Shown piece after piece: positions 17,442 through 61,668 of a stretch of 64,000 bases of DNA. The DNA comes from Urechis unicinctus (lineage: Eukaryota > Annelida > Polychaeta > Xenopneusta > Urechidae): the NCBI GenBank assembly GCA_034190875.2, contig CM067343.1:27200954-27264953 (forward strand), read 5' to 3'. The notes under the pieces were generated by a model. The model searched no databases. It was given only the letters and a program-made list of their open reading frames with translations, and was not told the DNA's origin. The position numbers and the translations under genes are program-made. Position 1 is the stretch's first letter. The number at the start of each line of letters is the position of its first letter.

Positions 17442-25784
<8,343 letters not shown>

Positions 25785-26880
25785 AACGCATTCATGCCCA
25801 TCGAAAAATGAACATACATCGTTTTCATACCAACCCTTTTTATCGAACGTAGCTTATCATGTGATCAAAAATATTTGTGATTTGTTATCTGGGTAGCTCT
25901 TTCTTTTGTAAACAAAGTATTCCAACGAAGCGCCTCTTTTGGTACTTAGGAGCTACCCATGCACTAACATATTCTCTCTTATCATGATTGCTACTTCTAG
26001 TAATCAACTACATTTGAGAGCAAAGGCGCTGTAACATGTTATGTTGTCTTTCTAATAGCCAAGCGGCCTTGACGATATTTAATTGAAATACATGTTAAGA
26101 CTACATTTCTTTGAACACTAATGCAATTAGCCGTAGATGGAAAGTAGAGCCGTTATTAGCAAGGGTTTCAATAGATTTAATACTTGTCGTCAGTATATTT
26201 CCGGTTGTTATGCACACCACATTAGTTGTGAGAAGTTTTCTTAATACTGAAGGTATTGAATGGTTGCAATGAACAAATTCGCTGAAATTAATGTTCAAAG
26301 TCAATGTCATCGTAATGGCATCCATACAATAAAGAGCTGCAGTGGATATTGACAATGAGACGTACATATATGACATTATGATATTAATAGCACAACATTG
26401 GTACCAGATTAGTAGTTATTATGCATAGCATGCATGTTGTTTGTAAGCGTAGTTGGAAAATATGATTTGGTACTACAACATATGTGAGGTCTAAGACCGT
26501 GGGTTCTTACTTCCAATATAGCTTCCAACTGCGGTCTGATTGTATGGCTGTTGGCTTTATCTATGCTTTATTGAATTGGCATAATCTCTAATCACCTAAT
26601 CATCTGCTTTTACTTACTGTTTCTAATCAAAATATATTTCTATATGGTAAAGGTTTAGCAAGGTTTAACTAATGAATTCACGAAGAAACACAATGTGCTC
26701 CCAATTAAAGCTGCAATCCCGGAGAGCTTGTGAAAGTTAATCACCTCAGGTGCGACAAAGAGGTTCGGAATCCTGATTCTAATGTCAACCAATAAGCGTA
26801 CTCCGAGATCCTATGTGTCAGTATAAACCTGCTGTGTAATCAGTGCCTGTAACTGTATTAATACAATTTCTATTACGATA
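25785..26880 (+). repeat. 1.1-kb direct duplication, copy 2
   Basis: Colinear partner of 1,530-2,620, about 24.2 kb downstream in the same orientation. See copy 1 for the shared landmarks. Confidence 0.75.
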
Positions 26881-28509: not shown

Positions 28510-28755
28510 CGACATAATGAAAACGTGTTTGCAACTATGATAGGAGTAACAATGGACAAACATGTAGCAAAGTTATCTAAATCAGCATAATATTCAGAAT
28601 GTGGATTTAGGTCTTGCCGTGGCGACTGCTGTGGACAATAAATAATCTGTTGGCATTAAAAGGCATCGAAGCAGCTAAAGCCATAGACGACTACAATAGA
28701 CGTTGTGTGGTGTGAATCCTTAACAGAAAGAAAGCGAAACAATGCACATTGTGTC
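28510..28755 (+). repeat. start of tandem receptor unit A (upstream flank, part 1)
   Basis: Matches 38,070-38,286, the upstream flank of gene B, in the same orientation. Shared words include AGTAACAATGGACMAACATG, CAGCATAATATTC, GAATGTGGATTT and GACGTTGT. It marks the left edge of the duplicated unit carrying gene A. The match breaks off near 28,755 and resumes at about 31,769, so the block between is an insertion into unit A or a deletion from unit B. Confidence 0.75.
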
Positions 28756-28823
28756 GTATCGCAATCTATGGTGCCTACCTGGAGTGGTCGATTTATTGCA
28801 TCTAAAGAAGAAAAGCAGGGCTG

Positions 28824-29186
28824 ATGGAAAACGGGTTATGGTCGTTTTGCTTGCGTATGCCCACTGCCCATTCAAAAAAACCTAAATCTGTGTCCTTGGA
28901 TATGGTCCCCATTCGAGCTTCACGTTATTTAACCTTAATCACACCGATTTACTTAAAAGCGAAACAAATTTTCCGAATGTCGATGGTGACTGCCTTACTC
29001 CATGTTCACTATCGATATAAAACTTATTGTGAAAATTTGATTGACAACCGGTGTGATTGGAATGCGACGCACTATATACATAATACAGGCTTGTATACAT
29101 CGAATATTAGGGGAGGTGGGGAATATAACAACAATGACTGCTTTAATCAAATCACCGTCGCACAGCACACAGCTGCTGTGACTTAA
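28824..29186 (+). other. 120-codon open stretch, unrecognised
   Basis: An ATG-initiated open frame inside the insertion upstream of gene A. It has basic and hydrophobic patches but no repeat, no signal peptide and no motif that I know. No clear splice sites link it to another exon. It may be part of the inserted element or chance. Included only because it is one of the longer open frames outside the receptor genes. Confidence 0.12.
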
Positions 29187-29759
29187 ATCTGAAATAGTTT
29201 ACTTAACCATTAAACATGCTATCGTGTGGGCTGTCGCCCTATGAGGCAATTAAATTCAAATGACACACAACCACAATGAATCAATTTAAACTATTGAAGG
29301 AAAATCGCAGGTCCAGAACTGAGCGTCATTACGTCATAAGGATTGAATCTTTATTACAACAGGCCGCGGTGCGGAAGCTGTAGAAAGAAAAAGTCAGGTA
29401 AAAGTTTCCCTCCTGCAGCTGCCAGGGTCGAGTTAGACGGGCCGACTTTGATCGTGTTTCTTGCGTCTATACGAGAAGCACTGCAACTTGACATTGCTTT
29501 GTTGTCGACCATGTTAGCTGCTTAGTGTTTACAACCTTAGGCGTTTGTTTTTAACTTGTGGGATGGTGTGTGTGCTGGTGGGGAAGTCAGCTGGGAAAGC
29601 GGACTTGGGGGTAGGGATTATAGAGGGGGCAACTGAGAATCTGCGTAAGTTGAGGGAAGGAATTTAGCTGAATAATTGGTCTGAGAAGATTGGGTTGGCT
29701 TTGGTAGTGATTGTGTGGGGGACAAAGTGGCATCCACTTTGGAAGGGGTTGGCAATGCT

Positions 29760-30870
29760 GGGGCAGAATTCCATGTAAGATCTCTGTCATGTGATGTCTG
29801 TGCAGAAGTGGGTATAGGATCAGAGATGGGAATGGTAGATAATGTCGGGTTAGCAGTCAGCTATGAATCAGAGCGAAAAGGGGGTTGTGATGTCTTTACT
29901 GAAGTGGGTATAGGATCAGAGAGGGGAAAGGTAGGTAAAGTCGGGGTAGAAGTTAGCGCCGGTCGAACGGTAATATAAATATATATACCGTTATGCTTCA
30001 ACATTTTGGGCGCACATGCGTTTGGCTGAAGTGCTGCATCGCGCATCTAAAAACCAACGTATATCAAGAGCCTGTAAAAAAAGCCATAGCGCACCAAAAT
30101 ATCCGAAATATCGCGATACAATGACCGCCATTTTGCAAAATATTGGGTCGCGTGATTTCCCGCGATTTCCCGCCGCCTTATCTGCAATGCCTCCCTGCTA
30201 AGCATGCGAAGCACTTTGAATACAATCGGCTGTATCTTATCGAGTTCAGACACAGGAAGCAATAGTCGTCCATGGGTCAGGCCATTCTGAGCATGCGCAA
30301 TGTACTTTGTCTTGAACTTGAAAAAAACCATGTTGCGTGTTTGGACTTTCTACCTCTTCCACATTGATCGCACTAAAACTAATTACCATGGAAACCCCCC
30401 GCCGCAAAGTGAACATCATTGCATTCTAAAACTACATCATTTGGGTATGTTTGGTGTTTGGTAGTTGTCTGAATCGATCTCAAATTTTTTAACATTGCGT
30501 CGTTCCCAATCAGAGTAAGACGTCTACTCACACGTCTTTTAAGGCTTGGTAGAAGTCAGATTTGAATCAGAGCCAGAAGGGGTTGGTGATGTATGTGCAG
30601 AAGTGGGTATAGGATCAGAGATGGGAAGGGTAGGTAATGTCGGGGTAACAGTCAATTATGAATCTGAGCCAGAAGGAGTTGGTGATATCTATGCATAAGT
30701 GGGTATCAGATCAGAGATGACAATGGTAGGTAGTGTTGGGGTAGAAAGTGGTTTTGAATCAGAGCCAGAAGGAGTTGGTGATATCTATGCATAAGTGGGT
30801 ATAGGATCAGATATGGGAAGGGTAGGTAATGTCGGGGTAGAAGTCAGCTTTGATACTGAGCTAGGAGGGG
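29760..30870 (-). repeat. 96-bp minisatellite, Pro/Thr-rich when read on minus strand
   Basis: The word GGGTAT recurs at 29,810, 29,906, 30,605, 30,701 and 30,797, spaced 96 bp within each of the two groups. Each unit carries GGATCAGAGATGGGAA, GGTAGGTAATGTCGGGGTAG and GAATCAGAGCCAGAAGG variants. Ninety-six bases is 32 codons. On the minus strand the unit reads as a Pro/Ser/Thr-rich repeat (SDPIPTS, PTLPTLPI). This is consistent with the tail of the protein whose body lies at 30,882-31,538. Confidence 0.75.
29957..30548. mobile_element. 592-bp insert splitting the 96-bp minisatellite
   Basis: Minisatellite sequence stops after GTAGAAGTTAG (29,946-29,956) and resumes at GTAGAAGTCAG (30,549-30,559). 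That is a near-perfect flanking direct repeat, as expected of a target-site duplication of about 8-11 bp. The insert holds an imperfect hairpin at 29,977-30,003 (ACGGTAATATA / TATATACCGT arms). I see no matching inverted ends and no coding region, so it is non-autonomous and its class is open. Confidence 0.6.
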
Positions 30871-31538
30871 TTGGTGAGAGGTTAACAAAAGTTGGCAGCA
30901 TAGCAGGATTTGCGTTTGTTGAGACGGTGGGAATGAGGTTGGCCAAATGGTTGATGGGGAGACGATATATTGGCTGTGAGCGCTTCCAAGTTAAGGGATG
31001 GAGCAGCATCAAGGGGCATTTTAGAATTAGGTGCGTCTGTTTCAACCGCTTCTTGATCCTTTTGTTCGACTAGTGTGGCTGATTTCGCTTTGATTGTCGT
31101 GACATGCGCTACTCGATCTTTAAGCTCTGCTAAATTCGTATTGATTTGCATGAGAATGTCATCAAATTTAAATGGCGCCTTCCGGTAAAGTATAACATCC
31201 TCAACAATTGACTTCCAAGTATCACGCTGCCTAGCCACTTTGCCACTAGACTCCAATAACTTCTGAACTTAATCCTCATTCAATTCATGCATTTTCACGC
31301 AGCACTCACGAACATCACGTGATTTCTCATTCCCTATCTGACCAAACTCTGCTCGCGCTATCGCCACACGCGAACTCCCTCTGTTATACCTCTCCTGTGC
31401 CAACAAATAATCTTCCTTCACGCTTTCATAATGACGCACAACTACATGCAAACGACCTAAACCCTGATCTTTTGTTATATTTATCCTGTATGGGAGAACC
31501 TCAGATTTATTTTGCGTATTTTCAATTTCCAATGACAA
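30785..31538 (-). pseudogene. broken coding remnant inside the insertion, possibly element-encoded
   Basis: Minus-strand open segments (31,269-31,538 and 30,882-31,256) share one style: charged, predicted helical, rich in Glu, Lys, Arg and Val, followed by a Ser/Pro/His-rich stretch that runs into the Pro/Thr minisatellite. I see no zinc knuckle, protease, polymerase or integrase motif. A structural protein of a mobile element (helical body plus Pro-rich tail) is one possibility, and a host gene relic is another. It is broken at least once. I cannot name the family. Confidence 0.35.
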
Positions 31539-31768
31539 ATCAATTTGAACAGACCAGGGAACGACTCAGGCACGCTACCCCGATTCTCATGGGACATGCA
31601 GTAGCTAGGTGAAAGGATGGGCGTTGCGTAGATATGGGGTATGTATGAGGAGATGGACCGGGGGCTGACATATGACACATAGGTCACTCATGGGCATGAC
31701 TGAGAGGGGCACGTCATGATGATGGAAGAGGTTGTGTCATAATGTACTTTTGACACTCCAAAAACTGT

Positions 31769-32336
31769 ATTGGGACAGACATGCCCAGTTAATATATTAA
31801 CGAGGGACGATGTAAACCCCTTTGGTCTCATTCAAGAAAATCATTCATTTGCGGTCATATGTTCAATAGCATAATTAGACGCATGTCACAGTACAGCACA
31901 CACGAGTTTCACGTTATCAGCATTTTGTTATTTGGCTGACGTTAGTTACGTGTTGTGCGATCATATCCATCTACTCATTGTCTACCCTGAAATAACCGCT
32001 GGTTCTAATTTGGCGATATCTTCTTCTCTGTAGTTGTTATCACATTGGAATCGTCGGAACATGGTTTTACTAGTGTCAGTTCAACAATTGTCAAACATCC
32101 GATTGTCAAGCGGATTCCAAACAGCGTTCTGTTAAAGGCGCTCGCACATTACTTTCTATGCATGAGTCACAACGGATAAATCAATTTTTCGCTTAGTTAA
32201 ATAACTGCACGCACTCAAAAAATTGAGTTCATACAGTCTCGTCTATGGTCTCGCGTGTTTAAGCAGAACCAGGATGTTAAGGAATAAGGTCGGCTCGGGG
32301 TTTGCCACGACTGTGGAAAGCTCGTTTCACAGAGCC
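31769..32336 (+). promoter_or_regulatory. upstream region of receptor gene A, conserved with gene B
   Basis: Aligns with 38,556-39,089 upstream of gene B. Shared blocks are ACAGACATGCC, ATATTAACGAGGGACGATG, GCATGTCACAGTACAG, ATTTGGCTGACGTTAG, TTTCTATGCATGAGT and CGGCTCGGGGTTTGCCACGA. The last block sits just before the ATG. No TATA box is obvious. An AP-1-type TGAGTCA occurs at about 32,163 in A, and the B copy reads TGAGTTA. Promoter and 5' leader lie somewhere here; the transcription start cannot be placed. Confidence 0.5.
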
Positions 32337-35300
32337 ATGGCGACCATCAACACCTCCTGTAGTCTATCGGTGATAATCGTTCTACTGATGGAAGGATTCT
32401 TGTCACAAGGTTGGTTATTTGAACGTAGTGATTTCTACTTATGTTGATATTGTGTCAATTTGAAGTTGGTAGTGTTTGACTCGAAAATACTATGGGGCTT
32501 CATTGTAAAGCGAGGCGGACACGCAAAAGTTGTTTCAGGTCAATACAGTAGGAAATGCAGCTGTGGGGGATGCAAGAAAACCTATAATGACTGTATGATT
32601 ATATACCGTTCTAGACTTGATGGTCAACTGCTTTTTTTGATACTATATAATGCGAGCAATATCAGTTGGTAACCCAACAGCTGGATATGACATCAGAATG
32701 GCGTTGTAAGACTAAGTGGGTTGACAAATCACTGCTATACGAAAGCATCAAGCATTGGCTTATGCCCGAGCATAAACAAACATCAGCAAGTTTCAGTTGT
32801 CATTTGGAACAGCCGAATACTTGATGAATCTGACCAGAAACACATCATCACCCTTTCCCATCTCAACAGTCCCATTTCTCAGTCCCACACCCTCTCTCAC
32901 ACACGCTCCTCTTCCAATAGCAACAAATAGTCGGATAATTCACGGTGTAATTTCTACGTTTAATAAACGAGAAACACGTCATTGTCTATTGTCTATGGTC
33001 GTTATTGCTTTCCAGCGTGTATATTTGGTCGACCCCATCAAAATTGTACTTACACCTGTAATTGCGCTGCGGACAGAAATTGTGATGCGGTGACTGGTGC
33101 ATGTGATGATGGATGTAGACAGGGTGCACCTAAACCTCTTGGTAACGAGAGGATCTTTGACTGGAGAGGACCGGGATGCAGGATAGGTAGCGATGACTAC
33201 ACATATTAACGAATATTATATGAATAGCAAGCATTTCACATTTACACATGTGGATATCTATCAATATATGATGTGTGACAAAACAGGTAATGTGGCTTTA
33301 AATAAACCCGTAAATCAGAGCGGAGTTGGTGGTGGTTGGGCGGCTAGCAACTCCGTGGATGGTGAATTACAGACAAAGGATCATCACCTCGTGCATTGCA
33401 CCCATACTGACCCAGCTGCTGTTGATTTCGCTTGGTGGTACGTGGACCTCGGCGAGAACTTTTACATCAACAATATAAGTATATTCAACCGACGACACGG
33501 ACTGAGTAAGTAGGGTCGCAATGTAAATACATTTAAATTTTTCAATTCAGAGAGTGATTTTGTTTTTACGTACAATACTAATGCATTCCAGGCTCTCGGA
33601 GAACCGGTTATTTCAACATTCGTGTCGGAAACAACAGTGATATTATCAGCAACACACTATGCACGTATTACGAGGGTCCTATACCTCCTGAAGAGAGTGT
33701 TACTCTATCTTGCAATTCAAACCTGATAGGTCGCTATGTAAGCTTACAGAGAACAGGAGGACCGGAACCTAACATCATTAACATATGTGAGGTGGTGGTC
33801 ATGGGTCATGAGTACGTCACAGCAAGTAAGAGTACATTTGTAAATGCTTAACATGAAATGATATGTATTTACATCTCATTGCTGATTTTAATCTGCATAT
33901 TTCCAACGTCAGTACTTTCTCCTACGGTTCAATTAACTATGTTGAGATTTTGTAAAGTCTTGAAAAATAGTCTCAGGCTTATTGGATCAGCTAGAATTAA
34001 TAATTTTGTTCACTCCTTACTCGGTACTAATTTGAGATCTATCTAAAAAACAATTTGTAATGAAAAAACAACTGTCGAAGAAAATAATGTAATTGCAAAC
34101 AGCACCTACCAAGCAGATCACTATGCACATAAATACCTCTACAGATTGAACTATGTAGGAGAACAAATCAATTTCAGATTCGACAAATTGCCTCTCCGAC
34201 AGTGACAACGTAGTGGGTTGTTTGAGTTGTTCTGGATTTGAGCCACCGCTTTGCACAACACGTAAGAAAACACCCACCACTTTCATCTATTATTTTCCAG
34301 CATTTACTATCCTTTGTAAAGCAAACGGAAAACTTTCATTGATGGCGTTCATGGCCTGTGCTTATTGCAGCATGCATCCGTGGACAATATGGGATAAACT
34401 GCAATACTTCCTGTTCTACTCATAAATGTCTGAATGGATCCGAGGCGTGCAATATGTTCACGGGTGAATGTCCAGAAGGATGTAGTATGTGGTTTTACTG
34501 GCAAGCAATGTACCATTGAAATAAGTAAGAATTGAATTGAAACTAGTGACCAGTAACGAATTTGTTACACAACCCTGAGAAAAAAGCGTCAACTTCTTGC
34601 ATTAAACGCATTTGCACCTCCTAACATTGTGTGCAGAGGTTGTTGACCTTGGCGAGGGGGCAAACTTAACCGTTATCAATGTAGGCACAAATGAAGTCAC
34701 GCTCCAATGGCAATCTGCTCGGGATATCTTACCTGATCTGGCTCACAACCACGGTTACCAGGTGCAATATATAAAGGCAACATGCAACAGAGTTCATCCC
34801 TGGTGTCAACATAACCCATGATGCTGATAAAGCAGAGCATTCAGCGACAGTCCACGGTCTGGAGTTTGACAGGCTATATGCCTTTCGAGTTAGCGCTTAC
34901 AGAGTGTGGCAAAGCCTATTCGAAGTGTCAACAATGCCATCCAAGGAAACGACTGGGAAAACATTGTGTAAAGGTACTGTTGATGTCTTTTCAGCATTAG
35001 TTTATGTTTGAAATCAACGAATCATCGAGTAAGTTTTGTTGTAACATTGATTTTTACTGATTTTTAGCACCAGAACCTGCAACAATTGTGGACGTGATGT
35101 CCCGAACAAACACACCACCATTCTCTGTACATGTTATATGGCAGGTTAGTCACGGATATGTATAGCCACATAACACATCAACTACATTAATTGGAAACAT
35201 TTTATCTGTCAGCTCTCTGTTTTTCACAGCTGACATCGTCAGGTTGTGACAGCATTTTATCCATACAGGCGCTGTACCGCCTAGCGGGTACTGAAACGTG

Positions 35301-36343
35301 GATGAGGCATAACGTATCTGATCCCAGAGGAACCATTAGTGCCAATTTGACTGATATTGCTGAGCCAGGTAGACTCGATGTCCGGATTAGAGTTGTTAAT
35401 AATGCTCACCTGGACTCTGAATCAACGACCCACAGCGTGATACTGGGAGGTACACTCTCCACATGGATAGTGATATTTGGCAATTTGCTGTTACTTTGTG
35501 TAGGCTGCCACTTCACCATATAAATCTATATTCGATACCCCATAGACCGTGGTCATGGTATATCTTGCCTTTTATTTAATACTGACCATTATCATGATCT
35601 TCCAGAAACGAGCACGATGCCATCTGTTGGAAGCTCAACAACAACTAATGTTTCGTCAATAGGTGCCGACAATTCATATTCATTGATGAATTGATTCCGC
35701 TTGGTCTATGTTGGGTTCTTTAACACCTGCTAGCAGAATTATGCAAACCTCGCTTCTGTGTCCAGTTGGGAATCCAACAAGGAATGAAGTAAATATAGGT
35801 CTCATAGTGGGACCAGTCGCAGGAGGCATGCTGCTTATTGTTATCGTCGTTGTCATCGTCGTCGTGTGTGTCAGGTCAGATGGGATGTATTATTTATAGC
35901 TTTGTCTTCATGACAGTTGATTATAATAACAATGATCCGTGTAAATCCATAATTCGCAACTGTGTTCAAAGGCAAACTATGAGACAGCAATTGTCAACAC
36001 CTGAATACGACCACTTACAAATGAAAACTAGAAGTAAGCATTTCTTGAATTTCTGACCCACATTTGAAACGCATCTAAATATAAATAATAACATTTTAAC
36101 TTTTGATTATTCGTTTACATAATTAGAGAAGTCTTTCAATAATGATCTTATCATGTTGGTCTGGTACATGCAGATCAAAGTACATCGGGGCAACAAGATC
36201 GCACTCTGGGAGATGCAACGGAGCATCCAGAAAATACTATTTATGAGACCTTAGTGGTCGAATCTGATGCAACAAACCAGGGTGAAAATGCAACTGTTTC
36301 CAACCCTGAACAAGGGACAACTGCTGCCATATTGGTGTCCTAA
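32337..36343 (+). CDS. receptor A: EGF / FTP-lectin-like / EGF / FN3 x2 / TM / short tyrosine tail, no phosphatase
   Basis: Thirteen exons: 32337-32409, 33016-33186, 33287-33505, 33592-33825, 34178-34261, 34371-34524, 34637-34973, 35068-35144, 35230-35449, 35606-35662, 35766-35874, 35972-36033, 36174-36343. Order: hydrophobic signal peptide (MATINTSCSLSVIIVLLMEG), Cys-rich EGF-like exon, FTP (fucolectin/tachylectin-4/pentraxin) domain with CTHTDP and WWYVDLG, second EGF-like module, two FN3 domains, Thr/Ser stem, a Val/Ile transmembrane helix, then a tail with PEYDHLQ and NTIYETL and a TAA stop. Most exons match gene B at about 85-90% by eye, introns included. Exons 6 and 7 each hold one extra base relative to B and so shift frame. 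An internal donor after 34,484 would restore exon 6. Skipping exon 7 (the first FN3) would also keep frame, giving 529 residues. So A is either a variant receptor, a decaying gene, or affected by sequence errors. The canonical fucose-binding motif is not evident. Confidence 0.75.
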
Positions 36344-37119
36344 CTAACGACGTATATGATCCAACTGTCAGGAGACATGAAGAGCGAGTCACATTATGGA
36401 AAGATCGAAATTTGCGATGGGTTGACCAAACAGCTCATTGCGAGTAATATGCCTGATAACCTTTCATTTCAGAAACATTATATTTTAAATGTGATCAAAA
36501 CAATGTCGATGTAATGTGCTACAATAACCATGGCGTTATAATGAATGCTCATTCACGTCATATAAAACAAATCTTTAACAAGAGTTATTTGTTCAATGGC
36601 GTTAGTAATGAAACCTGTTCATATCAACAGGTGCTTGACCAGGCTAAATCATTATTTCTTCCGCCCATTTAAAGTAATCATGCAGTGAGTCTGATCGTAC
36701 GCTAAACTGACAATTACCAGATTGAATTTAAATTCTAAACAGCGTACCAAAGCTTTCGACAATATAACAATTGCATTTGAAGTAAACTACTGAATGACAT
36801 GTTTCAAAAACCGTCATCCATACGTTGTTTACCTACAATGGATCAATGAAAATCATTCTGAAATCGATGATATACTTAACGTAACTGGGCGGATGTGGGG
36901 AGGTTGGGTGGGAGGTAAACTTGTTTATAGGTTTTGAGTAGGTTGTGGGGCTGTAAACGTTCAGCTGCTCGAAACTATGTGGTCCACACAGAACATTGAT
37001 GAACATTCCTTTAAGATGACGTAGATCGTTATCATATGTTTGGACTATGCGGTCATTGTTAGTGATGTCACAGTGATCATCCGAGTTATTTGAAATTATC
37101 AGTTTTCACATTAGGGATC
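36344..37119. other. downstream of gene A, no phosphatase exons
   Basis: I searched this stretch for the phosphatase landmarks found in gene B (KNRY-like, DYxNASY, KCxxYWP, HCxAGxGRTG) and found none. A G-rich block lies at 36,890-36,955. No convincing AATAAA immediately follows the stop of A. Confidence 0.55.
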
Positions 37120-37750
37120 ACAACCACAGCCTATGATGGAAAGACAACGCGCATAACAGCGAAGGTTTCATACACGAAACAATAGCAGAGTATCCTCATT
37201 GATCTTAATTACAAAATTGATTTTACCAATGTACTCCCTAAACGATTTACACTTAAACAGTGCATACTTCAAGCCAAGAAGGATGTCGCAAGGCAGAGTT
37301 TAGGACAAGCTGTCTCTGCAATAGCCCTACAGCTGTTGATGAAGATGGACTTTGATTCTGTATGAATATTTTCAACCGCTTTTGATATCAGGATAAGAAA
37401 GCCAGTGCCCATTTGACTGCTTCCAAAATGTTAACTTCAATGGCGGACGCGTTTCAATCGATTGACTGACACCATCAATCTATGCCAGTCATGGAAAAGA
37501 TACCAAGAAGTTTATAAGAGCGATATGGAGTCACAAAGAAGCTAACAAGGGGACCATCTGCATATGCAGTATTTGGCCAAAGTTAATACAGTTGTTATGT
37601 ATCCACTCCTCAAACAAACTTTGACAATTGACCTTGAAATGTCGATCATTATTAACATTATTACGTGTAGCTTTACTCTTCATATCGAAATGCATCCTCA
37701 CTGACCATACTCGCCCTTAAGTAAACACCAATCTTTAGCGCCATCCCCAC
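37120..37750 (+). repeat. unit-boundary flank, copy 1 (pair with 63,140-64,000)
   Basis: Same-orientation match to the last 860 bases of the window. Shared words include CAGAGTATCCTCATTGA, CTTAATTACAAA, ATCTGCATAT, CTCCTCAAACAA, AACATTATTAC and CGCCATCC. It lies directly before the solo EGF-like exon, so it appears to belong to the 5' part of a receptor unit different from A and B. Confidence 0.7.
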
Positions 37751-37821
37751 TGGGTATTCACAAAATATTGTCACAGTTCCTAATCCAATCGCTCATTTAT
37801 CATTCCTGCTGGTTTATTTGT

Positions 37822-37975
37822 CAGATTTGGTGAAGACTGTCCTTACATCTGTAATCGCGCTGCTGGAGTTTGCGATGCGGTAACTGCTGCATGTGATGGT
37901 GGATGTAGACCTGGAGTACCACGACCTCCTGGTAATGAGAGCAGCTTTGACTGGAGGGGACAGGGATGTATAACT
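37822..37975 (+). pseudogene. solo EGF-like exon, degenerate receptor remnant
   Basis: Clearly homologous to exon 2 of A and B. It keeps the CDAVT, CDGGCRPG and FDWRGQGC blocks. It differs from a working module in that the first Cys and the middle Cys of the TCNC motif are replaced. The intact 3' donor seen in A and B (after GGATAG) is not preserved. No signal-peptide exon precedes it and no FTP exon follows before the gene B unit starts. It is best read as the last trace of a third receptor copy between A and B. Confidence 0.8.
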
Positions 37976-38069
37976 GTTGGGTTGATTATATACTTCATCA
38001 CTGTTATGATTTAGTTATATCACTCGCATATATTCACATGATTGGTGACTGTTTTGTTTATTTTGAGAA

Positions 38070-38286
38070 ATGATGCAACTTGTTTTATACTACAATGAAA
38101 GAAGTAACAATGGACCAACATGTAGCAAGATATACTAAGTCAGCATAATATTCTGAATGTGGATTTTTGTCTTGCCGAGGCGACTGCTTTGGACAATAAT
38201 CTGTTGTCGTCAAATATAAAGTATTTGAGAAGGCAGCTAAAGGCATAAACGCCAACAACAGACGTTGTAACGCGTAAAACATTACA
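38070..38286 (+). repeat. start of tandem receptor unit B (upstream flank, part 1)
   Basis: Partner of 28,510-28,755. It establishes that the duplicated unit begins well upstream of the coding region and includes promoter-proximal sequence. Confidence 0.75.
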
Positions 38287-38509
38287 CAGGCCCGTAGCCA
38301 GGAGGGGGGGGGGGGTGGGGTTCGAGGGTTCGTTCGTTGCCCAGAAAGGTCCGCCTTATTCCAGCGCATTTGTGTATATACAGATATATCGTGTGTCGAT
38401 GGTGCCTTTGATTATGGTCTTATAGCCGCATCAGTATGAGCCAAGAGAAAGGTGCACTAAGGGGAAAAGAACCCCCCCACCCTCACTTGAAATCCTGGCT
38501 ACGGGCCTG
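38287..38509. mobile_element. 223-bp MITE with 17-bp terminal inverted repeats
   Basis: The left end CAGGCCCGTAGCCAGGA (38,287-38,303) and right end TCCTGGCTACGGGCCTG (38,493-38,509) are perfect inverted complements. They are flanked by ATTAC on both sides (38,281-38,285 and 38,510-38,514), or a 6-bp duplication with one mismatch. A run of G with one T follows the left end, and a C-run plus C/A block precedes the right end. There is no coding capacity, so it is a non-autonomous DNA transposon. The insertion is absent at the matching place upstream of gene A, so it entered after the duplication or was lost from A. The superfamily cannot be fixed from the ends alone; a hAT-like origin is possible. 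Confidence 0.9.
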
Positions 38510-39089
38510 ATTACCAGAAAGAGGGCGGCACAATGCGCAATTTATACGGACAGACATGCCTAGACAATATATTAACGAGGGACGATGTAAACCCTCTTTG
38601 GTCTTATTCACGATAATCAATCATTTGTGCCACATGTACAACAACAGAACAAGGCGCATGTCACAGTACAGTGCACACGAGTTGCATGGTATCAGCATTA
38701 TATTATTTGGCTGACGTTAGTCACGTGCTGTTCGACCATATCCTTCTACTTCTTGGCTCTCCTGAAATATCAGCTGCTTCTAACTTGGCGATATCTCCTG
38801 CTTTGTAGTATTGATCATATTGGAATAGTCGGTTCAACACTTGACAAACATTCGCTTGTCACGTGGATTCTAATAAGCGGTATGTTAAAGACTCACACAC
38901 ACCACTGATATGTTTACTTTCTATGCATGAGTTACAACGTATAGGTCGCTATTTCTCCCGCACTTAGATAGCAGCACGCCCTAAAAATCTACCCCTTAAG
39001 GTCTCGCGTGTTGAAGCAGAACGAGTGAGTTCCTAAAGATTGTCGGCTCGGGGTTTGCCACGACTTTAAATAACTCATTTCACACAGCC
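38510..39089 (+). promoter_or_regulatory. upstream region of receptor gene B
   Basis: Conserved with 31,769-32,336. The MITE places its right end about 580 bp before the ATG of gene B. The block CGGCTCGGGGTTTGCCACGACT just before the start codon is shared by both copies and probably lies in the 5' leader. Confidence 0.5.
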
Positions 39090-42000
39090 ATGGCGAGCTT
39101 CAACACCTCCTGTATTCTATCGGTGATAATCGTTCTACTGTTTAAGGGATTCTTGTCACAAGGTCAGTTATTTGAAGTAGTGATTTCTGCATATGTTGTC
39201 ATTGTTTCTACTTGAAGTCAGTGGTGTTTGATTTGACAAAAACATACTGGCTTCATTATAGAGCCCGGCAGACATGCACAAATTGTTTCAGGTCAATACT
39301 GTGAGAAAGGCCTAAATAATTATTGTGTGATTACATCTTGTTCTAGCCCTGTTTTTCAGTTGCTTTTGATTCTATATAATACGAGCATTAGGAGTTGATA
39401 AACCAGCTAGCTATACGTTAGTATCCAGCATTGGCATATACCTGTGCATAACCAAAATATCATCCCGTGACAGTTTTTGTTTGTAAAAGCTGACCAAACA
39501 CACATCACCACCTCTTCCTATCACAACAGCCCCATTTTTCAGCCCCATAGCGCTTCTCATGCTCTCGCCTCTTCCAGTAGTAATAAATAGTTTGATCATT
39601 CACTTTGTATGTTCAACCTTCATTAAACAGATGCAAAACACTTCATTGTTTATAGTCCACGGTCGCTGTTGCTTTCCAGCGTGTATATTTGGTCGACCCG
39701 ATCAAAGCTGTGCTTACACCTGTAATTGCGCTGCTGATGGTGATTGTGATGCGGTGACTGGTGCATGTGATGATGGATGTAGACATGGTGCACCACAACA
39801 GGGTAACGAGAGCATCTTTGATTGGAGAGGACCGGGATGTAGGATAGGTAGCAATAACTACGAAAGCTAACGAATTATTATACCATGAATAGCAAGCACT
39901 TCACATGAACACACGTTATTATTATTCAACATATATTTGTGTGATGAAACAGGTAATGTGGCTTTAAACAAATCCGTATATCAGAGCGGAGTTGATAATG
40001 TCTGGTGGGCTAGTAACTCTGTGGATGGTAGACTACCATCTGGATTTGCAGGCACTCAGGACCTCGAGTACTGCGCCCATACTGACCCATACGCTGCTGC
40101 TTTCGCTTGGTGGTACGTGGACCTCGGCGGGAACTTTTATATCAACAATATTAGTATATTCAACCGGAAACACCTGGAAAGTAAGTAAATTGCAATGTTG
40201 ATACATTCCAATTTTTCATGTCCGCGAATAAGTGTGTGATCTCGTTCATTACTGATGCATTTCAGGCTCAAAGAGAACCAGTCATTTCGACATTCGTGTT
40301 GGAAATAGCAGTAACATTACCAGCAATACACTATGCCGGTCTTACGTAGGCCCTGTACCTCCTGAGGAGAGTGTTACTCTATCTTGCGATTTAAACCTGA
40401 TAGGCCGCTATGTCAGCTTACAGAGAACAGGAGGACCGGAACCTAGCATCATTAACATATGTGAGGTGGTGGTCATGGGTCATGAGTACGTCACAGCAAG
40501 TAAGAGTACTTAATTAGCATTAACTTGAAATGGTACGAATCTATATCTGCCCGCTGATTATCATCTGCACTTTGGTTCTTTCTGCTAAAGATGAACAAAC
40601 AATGTTTTGAACAGCTTGAAAGCATTTGCTTCGTGCTTGCAGAATCGATCAGACAACATAGTTGGGTTAACTCATTGAAATACATTTGTAATTGCTGATA
40701 AAGATTAACGATATTTTGTCAAAGGTAAAAAATGTACGCTCGTAAAATTACAGATTCGACAAATTGCCTCTCTGGCAGTGACAACGTAGTGGGTTGTTTA
40801 AATTGCTCTGGATTTGAACCACCGCTTTGTACAACACGTAAGAGAACACACCACTTTTCATGTATAATTCTATATCATTTGTTCTCCTTTGTTAAGCAAA
40901 CGGAAAACTTAGAGAGAGCCATATTCATGGCGTTCATGGCCATGGACAATATGGGATCAACTGCAATGCTTCCTGCTCTGCTCATCGATGTGTGAATGGG
41001 TCAGAAGCGTGCGATGGTTTGAGGGGCGAATGTCCAAATGGATGTCAAACGTGGTATATTGGCAAGCAGTGTACCATTCAAATAAGTAAGAATCGTGTTA
41101 CTAAATACAATACTAGTGACCAGTCACTAATTCTGCATGTTACATGGCCCTGAGAAAAGGCCACAACTTCAAACATTATAAGCATTAGCAATAACAAACT
41201 CTGTGTGCAGAGGTTGTTGACCATGGCGAGAGGGCGAACTTAACGGTTATCAATGTAAGCGCAAATGAAGTCATGCTCCGATGGCAATCTGCTGGGGATA
41301 TCTCACCTGCTATGGCTCAAAACTACGGCTACCAGGTGCAATATAAGAGAGAAAATACAACAGAGTTCATCGCTGGTACCAACATAACCCATGATGCTGA
41401 TAAAGCAGAGCATTCAGCGACAGTCAGCGGTCTGGAATTTAACAGGCTATATGACTTTCGAGTTAGCGCTTACAGGCTGTGGCAAGGCCTATTTGAAGTG
41501 TCAACAATGCCGTCCAAAGAGACGACTGTGAAAACATTGTGTAAAGGTACCACTTATGGATGTTTTTTCAACATTAGTTCATGTTTGAAATCAACGAACC
41601 ATCTAGTAAGTTCTATTGTAACATTGAGTTTAATTGATTTCAGCACCAGAACCGGCAACAATTGTCAACGTGAGTTCCCGAACAAAAACACCACCATTCT
41701 CTTTTCATGTTCAATGGCAGGTTCGTAACAGATATGTAACGTCACATAACACACCCACTGTATTTATTGGAACATTTTTCTCTGTCAGCTCTCTGTGTTT
41801 AACAGTTGACGTCATCAGGTTGTGACAGCATTTCCTCCATACAGGTGCTGTACCGCATAGCGAGTACGGATACGTGGATGACACATAACGTACCTGATCC
41901 ATCAGGATCCACTAGCGCCAATGTGACTGATATTGTTGAGCCAGGTAGACTCGATGTCCAAATTAGAGTTGTGAATAATGTTCACCTGGACTCTGAATCA

Positions 42001-45000
42001 GCGACTCACAGCGTGACACTTGGAGGTACACTTTCATGGTTAACAATGATATTGGCAATTAGCAGTTGCTTTGTGAAAACTGCCCCTACACCATTGATTA
42101 ATTGATTGCGATTGGCTTTGTCATGTCTGCTAATACCTGCAAGCAGAGTAATGTAAACCACGCTTCTGTGTGCAGTTGGGAATCCCACAAGCAGTGGTCC
42201 AAATATAGGTATCATAGTGGGACCAGTTGCAGGATGTTTGCTGCTCATAGTTATCGTCGTTGTTATCGTCGTCGTGTGTGTCAGGTCAGATGGGAATGTA
42301 TTACTTATTGTTTTGCCTTCAGGAGAGTGGATTAATATAATAATGAATGATCAGGAGAGTGGATTAATATAATAATGAATGATAAGCATAAATTTATATT
42401 TCGAAATACTCTCGAGTTTCTCATATAAAACACCTCCTGTGGGTGAAGGGCTATAGATCCACAGTATCCTTCACTGTGTCATAAGAGGCAACTAACAAGG
42501 GGCAATCAGTTTGCCATAGGCTGCGATTCATGCCAATGAACTTCACCTTGAAATGAGACTTAAATGGCCTGGTCCAGTCTATCAGTTGGTTGTGATATAT
42601 CTTAGGATAATCATTCGCATATGTATTCTGCACAATTATTGTTGATTTTTATCCTTGTGGATTTCCCCCTTTTTTTCGTTAATCATAAATAGGTGGCTAC
42701 CAAATCAGGTCAATTTGATCTCTTTACATTGACTCAAATTTTGTAAGCACCACGGTGCAGGTGCCTGTTTATTCTAAACTTGTTGTGCTCTGTACATTTG
42801 TTTACCCAAGAAGACGGAAGCCTCATAAACCCCAAAACTATGGTGTTGACAACGTACAAATGTCAAGACGCTGTAAGCATTCTGGTTTTTCTAACACAAT
42901 TCGGAATGAGATGCGATAGCAATCCAAAATGGGACCAGATAGCTATTGATTACACAATGACTATCAATGTTCTGTAAAGCATCCGACGGGTCCTTTGACA
43001 AACCTGTCGGTGTTGTCGGACCAACAAGGAAGCCTGACATCGTAGCGAAGCCCAATATGGCTCATGTGGCAAGTGCAGCCCCTGGAAGCAGCCCGGTACC
43101 AATGGTAGCACAACAAGCTCTAAGCGATCATGCAGCTGTGTCAGAAGCCACAGTGCAAACAGAGTCATTACAGCATGATCTGTCGAGTCCCTATGCCAAC
43201 ACTGAACCAGTGTCGAAAGCACCCATCATCTTATCCCGATTGAAGTTGCATATCCGTCAGCTATCACAGCCAGTACCGCGAGCTGATGCCGTAAAAACTA
43301 AAGACGGGACGAGGTACATCACGGACGGGTTTGAGCGAGAGTTTGATATAAGTAATAAGTTGAATTATCACTTCGGCAATTGCGCATTATCAAATTGACC
43401 TCGTGCTTAAAAATGTCCGATATTCTATGCACACAAGGGCTTACCAGGACCAGACATTAAACAACGCACCGTTGGGAAAACACAGGCCAACCTTATTATG
43501 AATAGATTCAAGAACATTCAACCATGTAAGTATCTTTGAAAATCATTACAATTACGATCCAATTCGTGATTTTAAACATTTTCAGCAATGCCTACCATGA
43601 TATCGCCGTATTGTTTAAGATGACGACAACCGCGTTGTCTTGGAAGCAGTTGACGAATTGCAAGGCTCTGACTACGTCAATGCCAGTTACATTATGGTAA
43701 CCCACCTCCATTGTAAACTCTTACTACAGTAAGCATCCCATTCGTACATGATCTCTGTTATTCGTTATTGGGTTATGTTTAATGTTATGCGTTTTCATAT
43801 TTAGGGATATTCCGAGAAGACTAACCACTACATAGCCACACAAGGTCCGTCGATATTTGCTATGCATGGCTTTGTTATGCAGCCATTGATGACTTTCATT
43901 AATAAAATTTCTCTTTTGCATGAATCAAAATATTAATTTCTCATGATGACAATATGTTTATTATGATTAAGGTCCAATGACGGAGACAGTGTCAGCCTTC
44001 TGGTTCATGATATGGCAACAGCGTGCTAACCGTATTGTCATGCTGACCAGGCTGAATGAGGGAGGCAAGGTAATGATCGTATACATGTAGCAAGATGATT
44101 TTGTTAATGCATTTGGAAACAAATATCAGCCAATTTGGAGGGGAGGATGTTTTATAAACTATCAGTTATGTTAATCCAAGGATCTGTATGAATTGCTGAG
44201 TTCAGACAAAATGTGAGAGGTACTGGCCCGATGATGACGAAGCCGACGAGGACGTAAAGACGTATGGACCCTTTAAAGTTTCCCTAATGGTGACCGAAAC
44301 CCATGCCGATTATGCATACCGGAAACTACGACTGAGTTACAAGGTGCCCATTTGACTCTTTATTTTAACACCATTCAACATTTAGTGATAAAACTGCAAA
44401 AACCTTATGCAAACTGATGGCAAGGGAGCTTCGATTGGGTACAATTGAATAAGACGAGACGTTTTCATGTTCTTCAATTTGACATTTAATTGTGTAATTA
44501 ATTTTGAGGGCGAGGATCGGGATGTCCACCAACTTCATTTTAGAGCGTGGGACGATAAGAAGCCCCCTGAGGATAACTTTCCACTTCTCGCGTTCAGAGG
44601 TCGAGTGTTACGTTTGCCATGTGAAGCAACTGGCCCACTGGTTGTGCATTGCAGGTATTAATCTTTGCCAACAAAGATTTGTGAAATCAAAATAGCTTCC
44701 TCCACATGTACAAGTGGATTATCGTGAACGCGCTCAGTTTATTCATGCGTTTATTCAAATGTTTCAGTGCAGGTGTAGGTCGGACGGGTACGTTCATTGC
44801 GTTGGATTTCCTGATTAATCAAGCAAAGTGTGAGGGAGGCATCGATGTGTTTCATTGTGTCCACCGCCTGAGAACGCAGAGAATGTACATGGTACAAACT
44901 GAGGTATGCAGCCTCCTCTGTCTGGCCCCCTTTCTTTCCCCGGCGTATTCAATTTAACAATGCTCGGTAGATGTATACAATATTTGTTTGGGCAAAAGTT

Positions 45001-46210
45001 ACAGTACAAGTTTCTGTACCATGCTACACTGGAAGGAGTTGAAACGAAGATGGGTGAAACTGGAATTCCACAAGCGCAGTTTGTTGCTCATTATACTACT
45101 CTGTGTCAGGACACAACATATTCAAACCAGAGCCCTCTTCAAGAGGAATATCAGGTCAGAAATTTTAACAGCCCTTTATCAAATGCGCAATAATGTTTGA
45201 TCTGAATAATTCTTATATTGCAATGTAGATTTTATGCAAGTACATACCACTGGCCAATCCATCCCCCAGTTTTGAGGACAATAAGGCGAAAAACAGATGT
45301 CAAGATGTTCTTCCAGGTAACAACCTAAGTTATGTGTAGTATAAGATCACAGATGACTGAATACAGTGCGTCTTTTTCATCCTTATGGCACAGAAAAAAT
45401 GCATCTTTTAAGAAATGTTATGTTTTGTAAATGCATAACACCTACCCAAATACCTCCTGTTATATTATTCATGTTGTTTTGTAACCTGTGTTTGATCGTT
45501 CTGAAGCCGACCATCGACGTCCGAGGTTGTCGACACCTTATTCTGGAAGTAATGATTACATTAATGCAGTTTTTGCGGACGTAAGTGGTATCATCACTGG
45601 TATATAGCTAAAGGCTCATTGGCTTATGTACTTTCATTCAATCTAACAGAGGTTTGTGAATTCCCATACATATTCAGTATTCTCATTTTAATTGCAAGAA
45701 TATCTTATTGTTTACCGACATGTCCTTTATGTGAATGCAGAGTTTTGGCAAAAAGAAATCCACAATTCTGACGCAGATGCCTCTTCCAAACACCGTAGTT
45801 GACTTTTGGAGGCTTATCTACGATCATGAGTGCAATTGCATTGTCATGCTCAATGAAATGGAAACGGCCGACATGGTAACAACATATGTTATATTTTCAA
45901 AAGCATATTTGTTTTCATAATTTCATTGTCTAAACTTTTTTTCAATTGCAACCTCGGTAGTAGTTACATCTACGAACTGGAAGAATTTCGATTTCTTTTG
46001 CAAGCAGCATAGATTAAATATGTGATATTGTGTTTTGAACAGACTGATACACAATACTGGCCAGGCGAGGAAATATCTCACAAAAGTTATGGCCCCATTT
46101 ACGTCCAACTCGTCAGCACTGAGCATGAATCAAATATGCAATTCTCTTCCAGAACCTTCAAAGTGTACAACGAACGTCGAACGGTTTGTTGTTTGCCTTG
46201 ATAGATGTAC

Positions 46211-46245
<35 letters not shown>

Positions 46246-46994
46246 CGTGTGTGTGTACTATATTACATTAATGTTGATTTAGTTTTGCACCTGCCATTAT
46301 AAGCGAAAGGTTGTTTTCAAAATTATGTTATGTTGCCTTATAGATGCGGGAAGAACCTCGAACAGTCCGTCAATTCCAGCTATCAGGCTGGGCAATACGT
46401 GACAAAGTGCCACCCCAAGCTGATCTGTTCATTGATCTGATACAGAATGTGACATATTGGCGACGTAATCAAGAGGGAGGTTCTACAGTTGTGCATTGCA
46501 GGTAAATACGCCTCCTGATAATGTGATTTCAGTTTACGATGTTCCCATTTAATCCGATGTCCAATTTGTGTGGTTCAGGGACGGTGCCGAGCGAAGTGGA
46601 CTGTTTGCAGCAGGCAGCTACTTACTGGATTTAATGCAAGCCGAACAGGAAGTGGATGTGATGCTGGCAGCTCGTTACATCACATCTAGACGACCGGAAA
46701 CCATCAGCACTCAGGTAGTTGAAAATATATTTGATAAAACTTCCTATATATCAATACCCCAATGAGCTGCATGCTCATTACGCCAATTTCAACACAATCA
46801 TCCCAGTACTATTCACGGTGCTTCAGGAGCAGTACAAGTTTCTCTTCGAGATGGCCTATAGCTACACATCCGGCTTCCACACGTATGGTAATGCTGAAAC
46901 TAAGGAGACCACCAGAGGCCGCCGCAAATTAGGGCAGCGAGTGCGCACATGGCAACATTATCGTAAGACTATGGTCGATACAGTAGCTTATTAA
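39090..46994 (+). CDS. receptor B: FTP-lectin-like receptor tyrosine phosphatase, tandem PTP domains
   Basis: Twenty-seven exons: 39090-39162, 39680-39847, 39953-40180, 40266-40499, 40754-40837, 40897-41085, 41211-41546, 41644-41720, 41806-42025, 42176-42284, 42812-42873, 42980-43351, 43448-43525, 43620-43696, 43805-43844, 43972-44069, 44206-44343, 44509-44654, 44768-44903, 44999-45154, 45229-45316, 45507-45580, 45741-45875, 46043-46183, 46344-46501, 46579-46714, 46827-46994. They sum to 3,921 bases, that is 1,306 residues plus TAA. Every junction is GT-AG and phases agree throughout. Layout by residue: signal 1-24, EGF-like 25-80, FTP 81-234, EGF-like 235-325, FN3 326-437 and 438-536, transmembrane about 548-571, juxtamembrane to about 717, PTP D1 about 718-1010, D2 about 1035-1290. 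It should be a plasma-membrane phosphotyrosine phosphatase with a putative carbohydrate-binding ectodomain. The ligand is unknown. Least certain are the starts of exons 6 and 20. Confidence 0.9.
39680..42025 (+). other. gene B ectodomain exons (EGF, FTP, EGF, FN3, FN3)
   Basis: All these exons except the paired FN3-2 halves are phase 1-1, which allows modules to be gained or lost without frame change. The first EGF-like exon has the C-x3-C-x-C spacing (YTCNC) and CDAVTGACDDGC. FTP spans two exons: NVALNKSVYQSG, ASNSVDG, CAHTDP and WWYVDLGGNFYINNISIFNR in one; RVGNSSNI, VTLSCDLNLIGRYVSLQRTG and ICEVVVMG in the other. FN3-1 is one exon (EVMLRWQSAG, GYQVQYKREN, RLYDFRVSAY). FN3-2 is split after a conserved Trp-Gln. 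Exon 6 differs from A: the acceptor used in A (TTATTGCAG) is missing, and an upstream acceptor keeps frame and adds about 15 residues rich in His and Gly. Confidence 0.85.
42176..43351 (+). other. gene B transmembrane and juxtamembrane exons
   Basis: The TM exon encodes a Gly/Ile lead (NIGIIVGPVAG) and a hydrophobic Val/Ile core ending at Cys-Val-Arg, followed by a stop-transfer cluster RRKPHKP from the next exon. That 62-base exon has exactly the length and phases of exon 12 of gene A. Exon 42,980-43,351 is a 124-residue linker rich in Ala, Val, Pro and Ser, with SPYANTEPV and then PIILSRLKLHIRQL, as in the segment before D1 of other receptor phosphatases. The Thr/Ser stem exon of A (35,606-35,662) has no counterpart in B. 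Confidence 0.85.
42319..42382. repeat. 32-bp tandem duplication in a gene B intron
   Basis: Two perfect adjacent copies (TCAGGAGAGTGGATTAATAT plus 12 bases) lie just after the transmembrane exon. Being perfect, the duplication is recent. It does not touch an exon. Confidence 0.9.
43448..45154 (+). other. gene B PTP domain 1 exons, catalytic
   Basis: Landmarks in order: NRFKNIQP, YDDNRVVLE, GSDYVNASYI, YIATQGPM, FWFMIWQQ, KCERYWPDDD, the WPD-loop position reading WDD (W875-D876-D877), VVHCSAGVGRTG with catalytic Cys909 and Arg915, and MVQTE of the Q-loop. The phosphate-binding loop is fully canonical and the general-acid Asp is kept, so activity is expected. The loop Pro is replaced by Asp. 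The distance from the loop Trp to the catalytic Cys is the usual one. Confidence 0.92.
45229..46994 (+). other. gene B PTP domain 2 exons, probably non-catalytic
   Basis: Recognisable by KNRCQDVLP, SNDYINAVFAD, VVDFWRLIYDH, DTQYWPGEE, then VRQFQLSGW and VVHCRDGAERSG, and EQYKFLFEMAYSY near the end. The C-x5-R frame survives (Cys1205, Arg1211), but the first loop residue after Cys is Arg rather than Ser. The WPD position reads WAI, without the acid. Membrane-distal D2 domains of receptor phosphatases are commonly weak or inactive, and this one fits that pattern. The protein ends with a basic tail and TVAY. Confidence 0.88.
46209..46257. repeat. (GT)n(GC)n microsatellite in gene B intron
   Basis: Alternating purine-pyrimidine tract of GT with an embedded GC run, a sequence type able to form Z-DNA. 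It sits in the intron just after exon 24 of gene B. Confidence 0.95.
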
Positions 46995-60900: not shown

Positions 60901-61579
60901 ACCCAGCATCCAAGCTTTGTTTCCAACTGCATGGACCAATATATGCCCGAGGCATCCAGGCACGAATTTATACAGATTGGTGGCCATATTGGTGACGAGA
61001 TTTGCCCCAATGAGTATGTCTGTACCTCATTATAATTTTATGGAGAGTAATATGTACTTTCCAAGTTGCACTGAATCAGACAGCTATGAATAATGGGCTT
61101 TCATGTCCCAAAGAACCTAGTATATCAACAAACATTGGTAATGGCTGCAGGCAAAAGGTGTTGGACTCATCATTTAGTTCATCCCTAAACCTGTGTCTTC
61201 ATCTCTGGGTACTGTAAAACCTATCTGTTAATTTATTTGAACAAAATATCACACGAACAAAGGTTTGTTGATCAATATCTTTTTCACTTTATTTTTACAG
61301 AAGCTATTCGTTTTGCCATAACAAAAGAACAATAACAGTCACTGTAAATCAGCATAACAAAACTGGTGACTTATTCCTAGGCTGCCCTCACATTTTGTGC
61401 GTACCTCTGTACATCAGTATGTTACATTGCATCAGCTATATGTCTTATGCGTAGAAAGTCTACATGTAATATCATAAAATTAATTTGCAACAAGAATTAA
61501 TTTTTAAAAACATGACAATCATGTACTGAATATGCATGGTTGTGAATATTCATATGTGAGAAATTATTATAATTGTTCA
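54981..61579. other. intergenic, nothing recognised
   Basis: Open frames of up to 129 codons (60,646-61,035, +; 57,593-57,979, +; 56,741-57,022, -; 58,041-58,331, +) were read for domains without success. The 60,646-61,035 stretch has an overlapping second open frame with several Cys and His residues but no family that I can name. Confidence 0.45.
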
Positions 61580-61668
61580 CCTGATCCCGATCATTTCGTT
61601 GACCTTATTGATAACGAGACTGAGTGGCGCCAGCAGCAGACCAACGGGGTCACTATCATACATTGCAT
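61580..61668 (+). pseudogene. solo receptor-phosphatase D2 exon fragment
   Basis: Reads PDPDHFVDLIDNETEW... and ends TIIHC, aligning without gaps over 29 residues to gene B exon 25 (PQADLFIDLIQN...TVVHC). It is followed by a GTAAGT donor in the same phase (2) as in gene B. The first half of the exon and the rest of D2 are not recognisable nearby, and a clear exon carrying the next motif (DGAxRSG) was not found. This is the trace of an older receptor-phosphatase copy downstream of gene B. Confidence 0.75.

Follow-up and report, generated by a model that had tools for sequence, protein, structure and literature searches.

Do two neighbouring receptor genes of the annelid Urechis unicinctus form a pair, with the same ligand-binding part on opposite cytoplasmic ends? 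The window analyzed here is a 64,000-nucleotide stretch of contig CM067343.1 (C2:27200954-27264953) in the 1.19-Gb genome (assembly GCA_034190875.2). The initial annotation described two tandem genes in it, A and B, which carry a lectin-type ectodomain joined in B to two protein tyrosine phosphatase (PTP) domains and in A to a short tail, and read them as paired or decoy receptors. Both belong to a 3.4-Mb array at C2:25.5-28.9 Mb that contains about 90 related genes or gene pieces. The array appears to be a paired-receptor-like system, in which related F-type-lectin (FTP) ectodomains are placed on opposite ends. The sequence comparisons support this well for the array and poorly for A and B, which are a poor, probably decayed example of its layout.

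The genes of the array have three kinds of cytoplasmic ending. Class 1, to which B belongs, consists of receptor-type PTPs (RPTPs) with a catalytic cysteine, class 2 consists of RPTPs with serine at that position, and the third kind, the type of A, has a tail and no PTP. At the sequence level the opposing ends are thus a catalytic cysteine versus serine or no PTP at all. The array list holds at least 37 class-1 genes, at least 35 genes with class-2 PTP exons, and at least 18 tail exons for which no class-2 PTP exon was found, fragments included. These numbers come from hand-compiled lists of matches in genome searches with the first FTP exon (FTPa; best 150 of 355 candidates), the tail exon of A, exons P6-P7 of the first PTP domain (D1), and exon P7 (best 150 of 277). 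Between 40 and 150 best candidates were scored per search, and the counts are lower bounds. The lists exclude matches on C11, FTPa matches beyond the array that fall below 60% (leaving 88 of 150), P7 matches other than those at C2:25.5-28.9 and 73.6 Mb, and one class-1 match at C2:26253679. The tail exon of A has at least 47 matches in the genome, 46 of them on C2, and most lack a stop. One A-B-like pair is found on C11, and more distant FTP and PTP copies occur at C2:23.6-25.1 Mb and on other contigs. Many more P7 matches lie on C6, C9, C11, C14, C15, and C3 among the best 150 of 277 candidates, and RPTPs seem to have multiplied broadly across the genome.

The catalytic and serine forms are cleanly separated. 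A pattern for the cysteine form of the D1 signature occurs at 95 sites in the genome, 33 of them in the array, and the serine form at 27 sites, 26 of them in the array; reversed controls gave none. All 34 of the cysteine sites tested on C2 precede class-1 P7 exons. Of 26 serine sites, 24 precede class-2 P7 exons and two precede neither kind, so that no site crosses class. The serine-type P6 site outside the array (C2:24539453) is in an older RPTP cluster that otherwise has cysteine, and is perhaps an independent or an ancestral inactive D1. In three class-2 genes (L059-L061) the signature reads VHS at the end of P6 and SAGDGRVG at the start of P7, and P6 ends in serine in 14 of the 15 loci that reach this point, with isoleucine in one (L029). 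The ratio of nonsynonymous to synonymous substitution rates (dN/dS) in class-2 D1 is 0.40 for P5 (15 loci) and 0.29 for P6 (13 of 15 loci, two with stops being omitted). Class 2 therefore has the marks of a group of pseudophosphatase RPTPs, in which the PTP is under constraint while the catalytic residue is lost. Many whole class-2 genes are damaged, but the constraint on their D1 exons led us to reject the view that they are plain pseudogenes.

The kind without a PTP appears to have come from class 2. The tail exon of A is the class-2 juxtamembrane exon, and relatives read through it (..ILVSQLKTYMIQLSGDM..DGKIEICDGFARQFD; B for comparison ..DGTRYITDGFEREFD) toward PTP exons 1.5 kb downstream, so that a signalling tail of other, independent origin was rejected. 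Gene A has lost the class-2 PTP exons, and position 1102 of the class-2 gene L061 meets position 4652 at 36479-36482 of the window. Seven tail-only loci (L039-L043, L046, and L047) align with A across this junction without a break, while the class-2 loci L044, L051, L059, and L061 break there. The same TAA is found in 10 of the 12 tail-only loci read, and the other two have indels in the tail. A single origin from class 2, through a shared deletion and a shared stop, is the simplest account of these alignments. The class-1 juxtamembrane exon is of a different type. Of its 41 matches on C2 to the exon of B, 31 are followed after 1.3-2.6 kb by a class-1 P7 exon and none by a class-2 one.

Gene order and the lectin exons link the two arms of the array. 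Among same-strand neighbours within 20 kb, a non-catalytic gene is followed by a non-catalytic gene 19 times and by a catalytic gene 19 times, while a catalytic gene is followed by a non-catalytic gene three times and by another catalytic gene three times. The excess of catalytic genes downstream of non-catalytic ones was matched in 0 of 20000 shuffles. When each non-catalytic gene is set beside the first class-1 gene that follows it downstream, the mean FTPa distance is 0.104, compared to 0.169 after permutation (0/20000; 19 pairs, one of them on C11). With segmental copies removed, the distance for the remaining 15 pairs is 0.123 (0/20000). In nine of the 19 pairs (six of 13 class-1 partners) the neighbour is also the nearest of the 21 class-1 FTPa exons. 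In an FTPa tree (IQ-TREE, 40 rows; bootstrap almost but not fully settled, at 0.989) the class label is unclustered, class 1 requiring 12 changes versus a shuffled mean of 13.5. One locus, L050, was labelled class 2 in the tree and the neighbour tests from its read-through codon, and no PTP exon was found there. Neighbours of opposite class share FTPa at 97.7% (L041/L067), 96.4% (L079/L080), and 95.5% (L040/L069 and L087/L062). Higher values are found for the class-1 gene L064 (C2:26189905), with 100% to L086, 99.6% to L048, and 98.7% to L047, a set of class-1 and tail-only neighbours; here either very recent exchange or duplication in the assembly may be seen.

Sharing of FTPa by opposite-class neighbours whose cytoplasmic parts are class-specific suggests that ectodomains are exchanged or homogenized locally. 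From about 35650 to the tail, gene A is 94-100% identical to L039-L041, introns included, while its ectodomain is mostly 60-90% identical to theirs (93-94% in the second FTP exon, FTPb), which implies that these genes are mosaics. The array therefore resembles a cluster of partners in which recombination maintains the similarity of the ectodomains.

Two tyrosine motifs are conserved in the non-catalytic arm. In 30 tail loci out of at least 47 matches, the Y, E, and T of YETI are present in 30 of 30 and the I in 29. In YDHL the D and the L occur in all 30 loci, and the Y and the H in 29 each. The tail exon has a dN/dS of 0.60 (24 loci), and constraint on the juxtamembrane and tail exons is low overall, so conservation is centred on the motifs. 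A threonine at position -2 and the flanking VVES are likewise conserved. The immunoreceptor tyrosine-based activation motif (ITAM) consists of two YxxL/I sequences 6-8 residues apart. About 28 residues separate YDHL and YETI, and this reading was rejected because the spacing is too long. The inhibition motif (ITIM) is [SIVL]xYxx[ILV] and the switch motif (ITSM) is TxYxx[VI]. In most of the 30 loci T[IV]YETI matches the ITSM; A has TIYETL, L012 NIYETI, and L026 TNYETI. The residue at the -2 position of the ITIM is threonine here.

Variation in FTPa is greatest in a part that covers the loop of the predicted sugar pocket. The loop GRLPSGFAGTQDLEYCAHTDPYAAA has a dN/dS of 1.08, compared to 0.47 elsewhere in the exon, based on 45 of 51 rows; four of the omitted rows contain a stop or a broken frame, and L075 and L076 were dropped only for failing a first-residue filter. 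Alignment to eel agglutinin places the equivalents of His52 and Arg79 at sugar-contact positions, as given in an excerpt of PMC5712786. In the 45 rows the first of these is H in 31, D in 12, N in one, and Q in one, while the second is R in all 45. The strict fucose motif HX24RXDX4(R/K) stated in the same excerpt is absent from A and B. Both retain the histidine, the arginine, and the last basic residue, with histidine in place of the acidic residue and a gap of 28 residues between His and Arg.

Gene B looks like a complete receptor gene. Its hand-built model has 27 exons at 39090-46994, AG/GT borders at all 26 introns, and a product of 1298 amino acids; like all genes of the window described here, it is on the forward strand. 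Ten exons at 39090-42284 encode the signal peptide, EGF1, FTPa, FTPb, a linker, EGF2, FN3-1, FN3-2a, FN3-2b, and the transmembrane segment. They are followed by two juxtamembrane exons of class-1 type (42811-43351; at least 42 class-1-like matches genome-wide), by D1 in exons P1-P8 (43448-45154), and by the second PTP domain (D2) in exons P9-P15 (45229-46994), which has the motif HCRDGAERSG and ends with a stop at 46994. The two PTP domains of the initial annotation were confirmed by Pfam, with Y_phosphatase in two stretches (E 1.7e-132), as well as fn3 and F5_F8_type_C_2. The D1 signature VHCSAGVGRTG contains an intact HCSAGVGRTG, which both the model and the pattern scan place across the P6/P7 intron after HC (44632-44790). 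Exon P8 may begin six bases earlier (44999-45005), with two extra residues before YKFLY. The F-type lectin fold is recognized by sequence (PF22633, E 6.2e-11 for the protein), and the closest PDB structures to the lectin part are FBP32 (3cqo, E 8e-16) and eel agglutinin (1k12, E 6.5e-8). For the PTP part the best matches are 4bpc (E 2.5e-117), 2fh7, and 1lar, the nearest proteins being PTPRS and LAR. Receptor-type PTPs are transmembrane proteins with a PTP domain and HC(X5)R; B is of this type and A is not.

Gene A has the ectodomain exon series of B (32337-35874) within coding exons that span 32337-36343, and to this extent the exon set proposed for both genes was recovered by the exon models and Pfam. 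A signal-peptide exon with an ATG start and an in-frame GT donor (32337-32409) is followed by EGF1 (33016-33186), FTPa (33287-33505), FTPb (33592-33825), the linker (34178-34261), EGF2 (34371-34524), FN3-1 (34637-34973), FN3-2a (35068-35144), FN3-2b (35230-35449), and the transmembrane exon (35766-35874), all placed by exon comparison. A candidate conserved stalk exon at 35606-35662 was rejected, as it is not kept in frame at other loci. The juxtamembrane exon (35972-36033) has EYDHLQM, a motif in which each position is kept by 29-30 of 30 loci, and the last exon (36174-36343) has TIYETL and closes with TAA. No PTP exons were found between A and B by tblastn with the PTP exons of B or of class 2, which agrees with the view that A stops in this exon. 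The transmembrane exon of A has 109 bases and ends in a phase that matches the start of the juxtamembrane exon of B, so that splicing of A into the phosphatase exons of B, which the initial annotation named as a refuting case, may be allowed. Among the relatives of A, the tail-only gene L041 (C2:26508800-26516200) has no recognizable signal-peptide exon, and an inverted class-1 gene with FTPa at 26510344 on the opposite strand lies beside it.

As a matched pair, A and B do not hold up. The initial annotation put their identity at 85-90%, introns and upstream DNA included. The per-exon comparison that it proposed supports this for most exons (86-92% in DNA), with FTPa (79.0%) and EGF2 (80%) below the range. 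Non-coding DNA is also lower, the long blocks with introns having 74.7%, 82.2%, and 82.4% identity and the upstream block 80.2% in a blastn comparison of the window to itself. The proteins share 49 of 72 residues in FTPa and 63 of 77 in FTPb, so the ligand-binding parts are not nearly identical, as had been claimed. In the FTPa tree the two genes fall in different clades, A with four class-2-labelled copies (support 100/99). The pair was rejected on its FTP divergence, its separate clades, and the rank of B, which is 12th of 21 in closeness to A. The paired layout first proposed for these two genes is instead a property of the array, where the classes, the gene order, and the sharing of FTPa fit it; the frameshifts of A, the rank of B, and the different clades do not.

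How such an array might function can be outlined from its motifs. We consider the chances about even that it works by a paired-receptor mechanism of co-engagement, motif phosphorylation, SH2 recruitment, and class-1 dephosphorylation. Both arms of a matched pair would bind the same or a similar glycan on the same cell, and a Src-type kinase would phosphorylate YDHL and YETI, which would then recruit SH2 proteins. Phosphotyrosine substrates may in addition be bound by the dead D1 of class 2, in the way reported for PTPRU. Drawn by the same ligand, the class-1 partner would strip the phosphates from YDHL and YETI and set a threshold, and the inhibitory arm would in this way carry the phosphatase itself. 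A broader proposal is that this is an invertebrate paired system of sister RPTPs, with an active-phosphatase arm set against a Cys-to-Ser trap or a PTP-less arm with two motifs, and with many pairs diversifying their F-type-lectin pocket in step by local recombination. This we put forward tentatively, at somewhat under even odds.

Several observations weigh against these proposals. As assembled, A has two frameshifts, one in EGF2, where a surplus base leads to a stop, and one in FN3-1. Neither is found in its three nearest relatives (L039, L040, and L041), which points to private decay or an assembly error; an intact receptor was rejected, and in its assembled form A is most likely a non-catalytic member that has decayed. 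In a comparison with 21 class-1 FTPa exons, 11 are closer to A than that of B, and in 10 of the 19 neighbour pairs, A and B included, the neighbour is not the nearest. The comparison between classes covers FTPa, with more of the ectodomain included for B, L002, and L006. Flags (a missing exon, frameshift, stop, or splice site) are absent over 12 exons from three of the 21 non-catalytic genes examined (L047, L048, and L051), and the first two of these, which are intact tail-only genes, are near-duplicates; both class-1 genes checked over seven exons are clean. The WPD loop of D1 in B is WDD, and class-1 activity is a prediction from motifs. EGF2 of B lacks the splice acceptor present in its class-1 relatives L002 and L006, so the exon must take another AG, such as an in-frame one upstream, or be skipped. 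The dN/dS is 0.91 for the juxtamembrane exon (28 loci) and 0.94 for the transmembrane exon, and the value near 1 in the FTPa loop fits relaxed constraint too.

Much of this would be expected of a birth-and-death array, in which most non-catalytic genes are pseudogenes or were left behind by unequal crossing-over between RPTP genes, A is dead, and the likeness of neighbours reflects local gene conversion with no function as pairs. The frameshifts of A, at least one flag in 18 of 21 non-catalytic genes, the stray exons at 37838-37968 and 61558-61763, and the juxtamembrane dN/dS all suit such an account. It has more difficulty with the dN/dS of 0.29-0.40 in class-2 D1, the near-invariant YDHL and YETI, the absence of stops from most of the tail matches, the intact ectodomains of L047, L048, and L051, and the one-way gene order, and we regard it as a possible but lesser explanation. 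The same two motifs bear on the idea that dead and PTP-less forms act as dominant-negatives or decoys, which do no signalling themselves and are simply rivals of class 1 for ligand or phosphotyrosine substrates. Loss of the catalytic cysteine, the lack of any PTP in the A type, and the competition for substrates reported for PTPRU in an excerpt of PMC7320164 are all consistent with decoys. A decoy has no need of YDHL and YETI, and their conservation in dead and PTP-less kinds alike makes this reading, raised by the initial annotation, improbable in general. The motifs might be uptake signals instead, and the non-catalytic members glycan uptake receptors with no signalling role. YxxPhi is an endocytosis motif that both YDHL and YETI match, and an F-type lectin ectodomain would suit uptake. 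The conserved threonine at -2 and the VVES flank go beyond what YxxPhi needs, however, and the pairing with RPTPs is left unexplained; this too is hardly likely.

The rest of the window has remnants of the same family. The region at 28510-31772, which the range of the initial annotation includes, has no exons; it is DNA upstream of A that is about 2.8 kb longer than that upstream of B and contains 96-base repeats, seen as minisatellite-like copies at about 96-base spacing at 29791-30877. A block at 28534-28706 (+) corresponds at the 80.2% given above to 38092-38268 upstream of B. Between A and B there is a stray third copy of an EGF1-like exon (37838-37968, +; window self-blastn and tblastn). 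An isolated D2 exon of class-2 type (P13) remains as a relic at 61558-61763 (+; 75.7% to L059 and 81.1% to L061), and 63495-63999 (+) matches the 3' flank of class-2 genes (68.6% to L059 and 70.1% to L061). Both lie upstream of the next class-1 gene, whose FTPa at C2:27267528 is past the end of the window. A dispersed repeat pair occurs at 1533-2639 and 25784-26873 (72.6% identity over 1151 columns). An open frame of 127 codons at 53523-53906 on the reverse strand is by eye a possible transposon integrase; Pfam gave no family at E values up to 0.01.

Paired activating and inhibitory receptors are known mainly from Ig-type and C-type receptors of vertebrates. If the proposed mechanism holds, such receptors arose separately in an invertebrate and from different parts, with an F-type lectin outside and a phosphatase built into one partner rather than recruited. 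The array would then be a candidate for glycan-based recognition of self and non-self. Studies of how ligands steer RPTPs would also gain a large natural collection of sister phosphatases, active ones and Cys-to-Ser ones, whose ectodomains are matched. There is a caution as well, since reading a single pair picked out a decayed member while the array holds the signal.

Parts of the array resemble known proteins. PTPRS and LAR are the closest PDB matches to the two PTP domains of B, but B has an EGF/F-type lectin/EGF/FN3 ectodomain and belongs to a large tandem array. Eel agglutinin, FBP32, and the oyster bindins share the lectin fold, their His-Arg-Arg triad is partly retained in the array, and loops round the sugar pocket vary in the bindins as well (PMC5712786, in excerpt). 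No PTP part is described for the F-type lectins in that excerpt, whereas members of the array are transmembrane receptors. In the snail Gigantopelta aegis fucolectin is reported as an expanded immunity-related family and PTPRK appears in the legend of the same figure; the excerpt of PMC7895826 describes neither a joined fucolectin-PTPRK receptor nor pairing. Searches for mollusc RPTP expansions and for F-type-lectin RPTPs, with subscription papers outside their scope so that absence is not proven, turned up no description of this family. Nor did the literature searched show the combination seen here, in which F-type-lectin RPTPs stand in tandem with sisters that are Cys-to-Ser or PTP-less.

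In its presumed working the array is closer to other systems. PTPRU is also an RPTP whose D1 is inactive and binds the substrates of active relatives, but according to the excerpt of PMC7320164 it keeps a catalytic cysteine that is structurally blocked, while class 2 has a serine codon and lies beside active partners that share its lectin exons. The CEACAM genes of Xenopus number more than 80 in clusters, with similar ligand-binding regions, opposing cytoplasmic ends, and gene conversion (PMC5112662, abstract). They differ in belonging to the Ig superfamily and in having ITIM/ITSM versus ITAM-like tails, and the abstract describes no phosphatase borne on a receptor. Siglec-11 and Siglec-16 are likewise lectin receptors with opposing signals. 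Gene conversion maintains the likeness of their ligand-binding exon, and one partner is often a nonfunctional allele (PMC5701461, in excerpt). They form one pair of Ig-like lectins for sialic acid, whereas the array has F-type lectins, dozens of genes, and tandem PTP domains on its catalytic arm. The array is not a member of the Siglec or CEACAM family, and its likeness to them, drawn by analogy, is in the way it would work.

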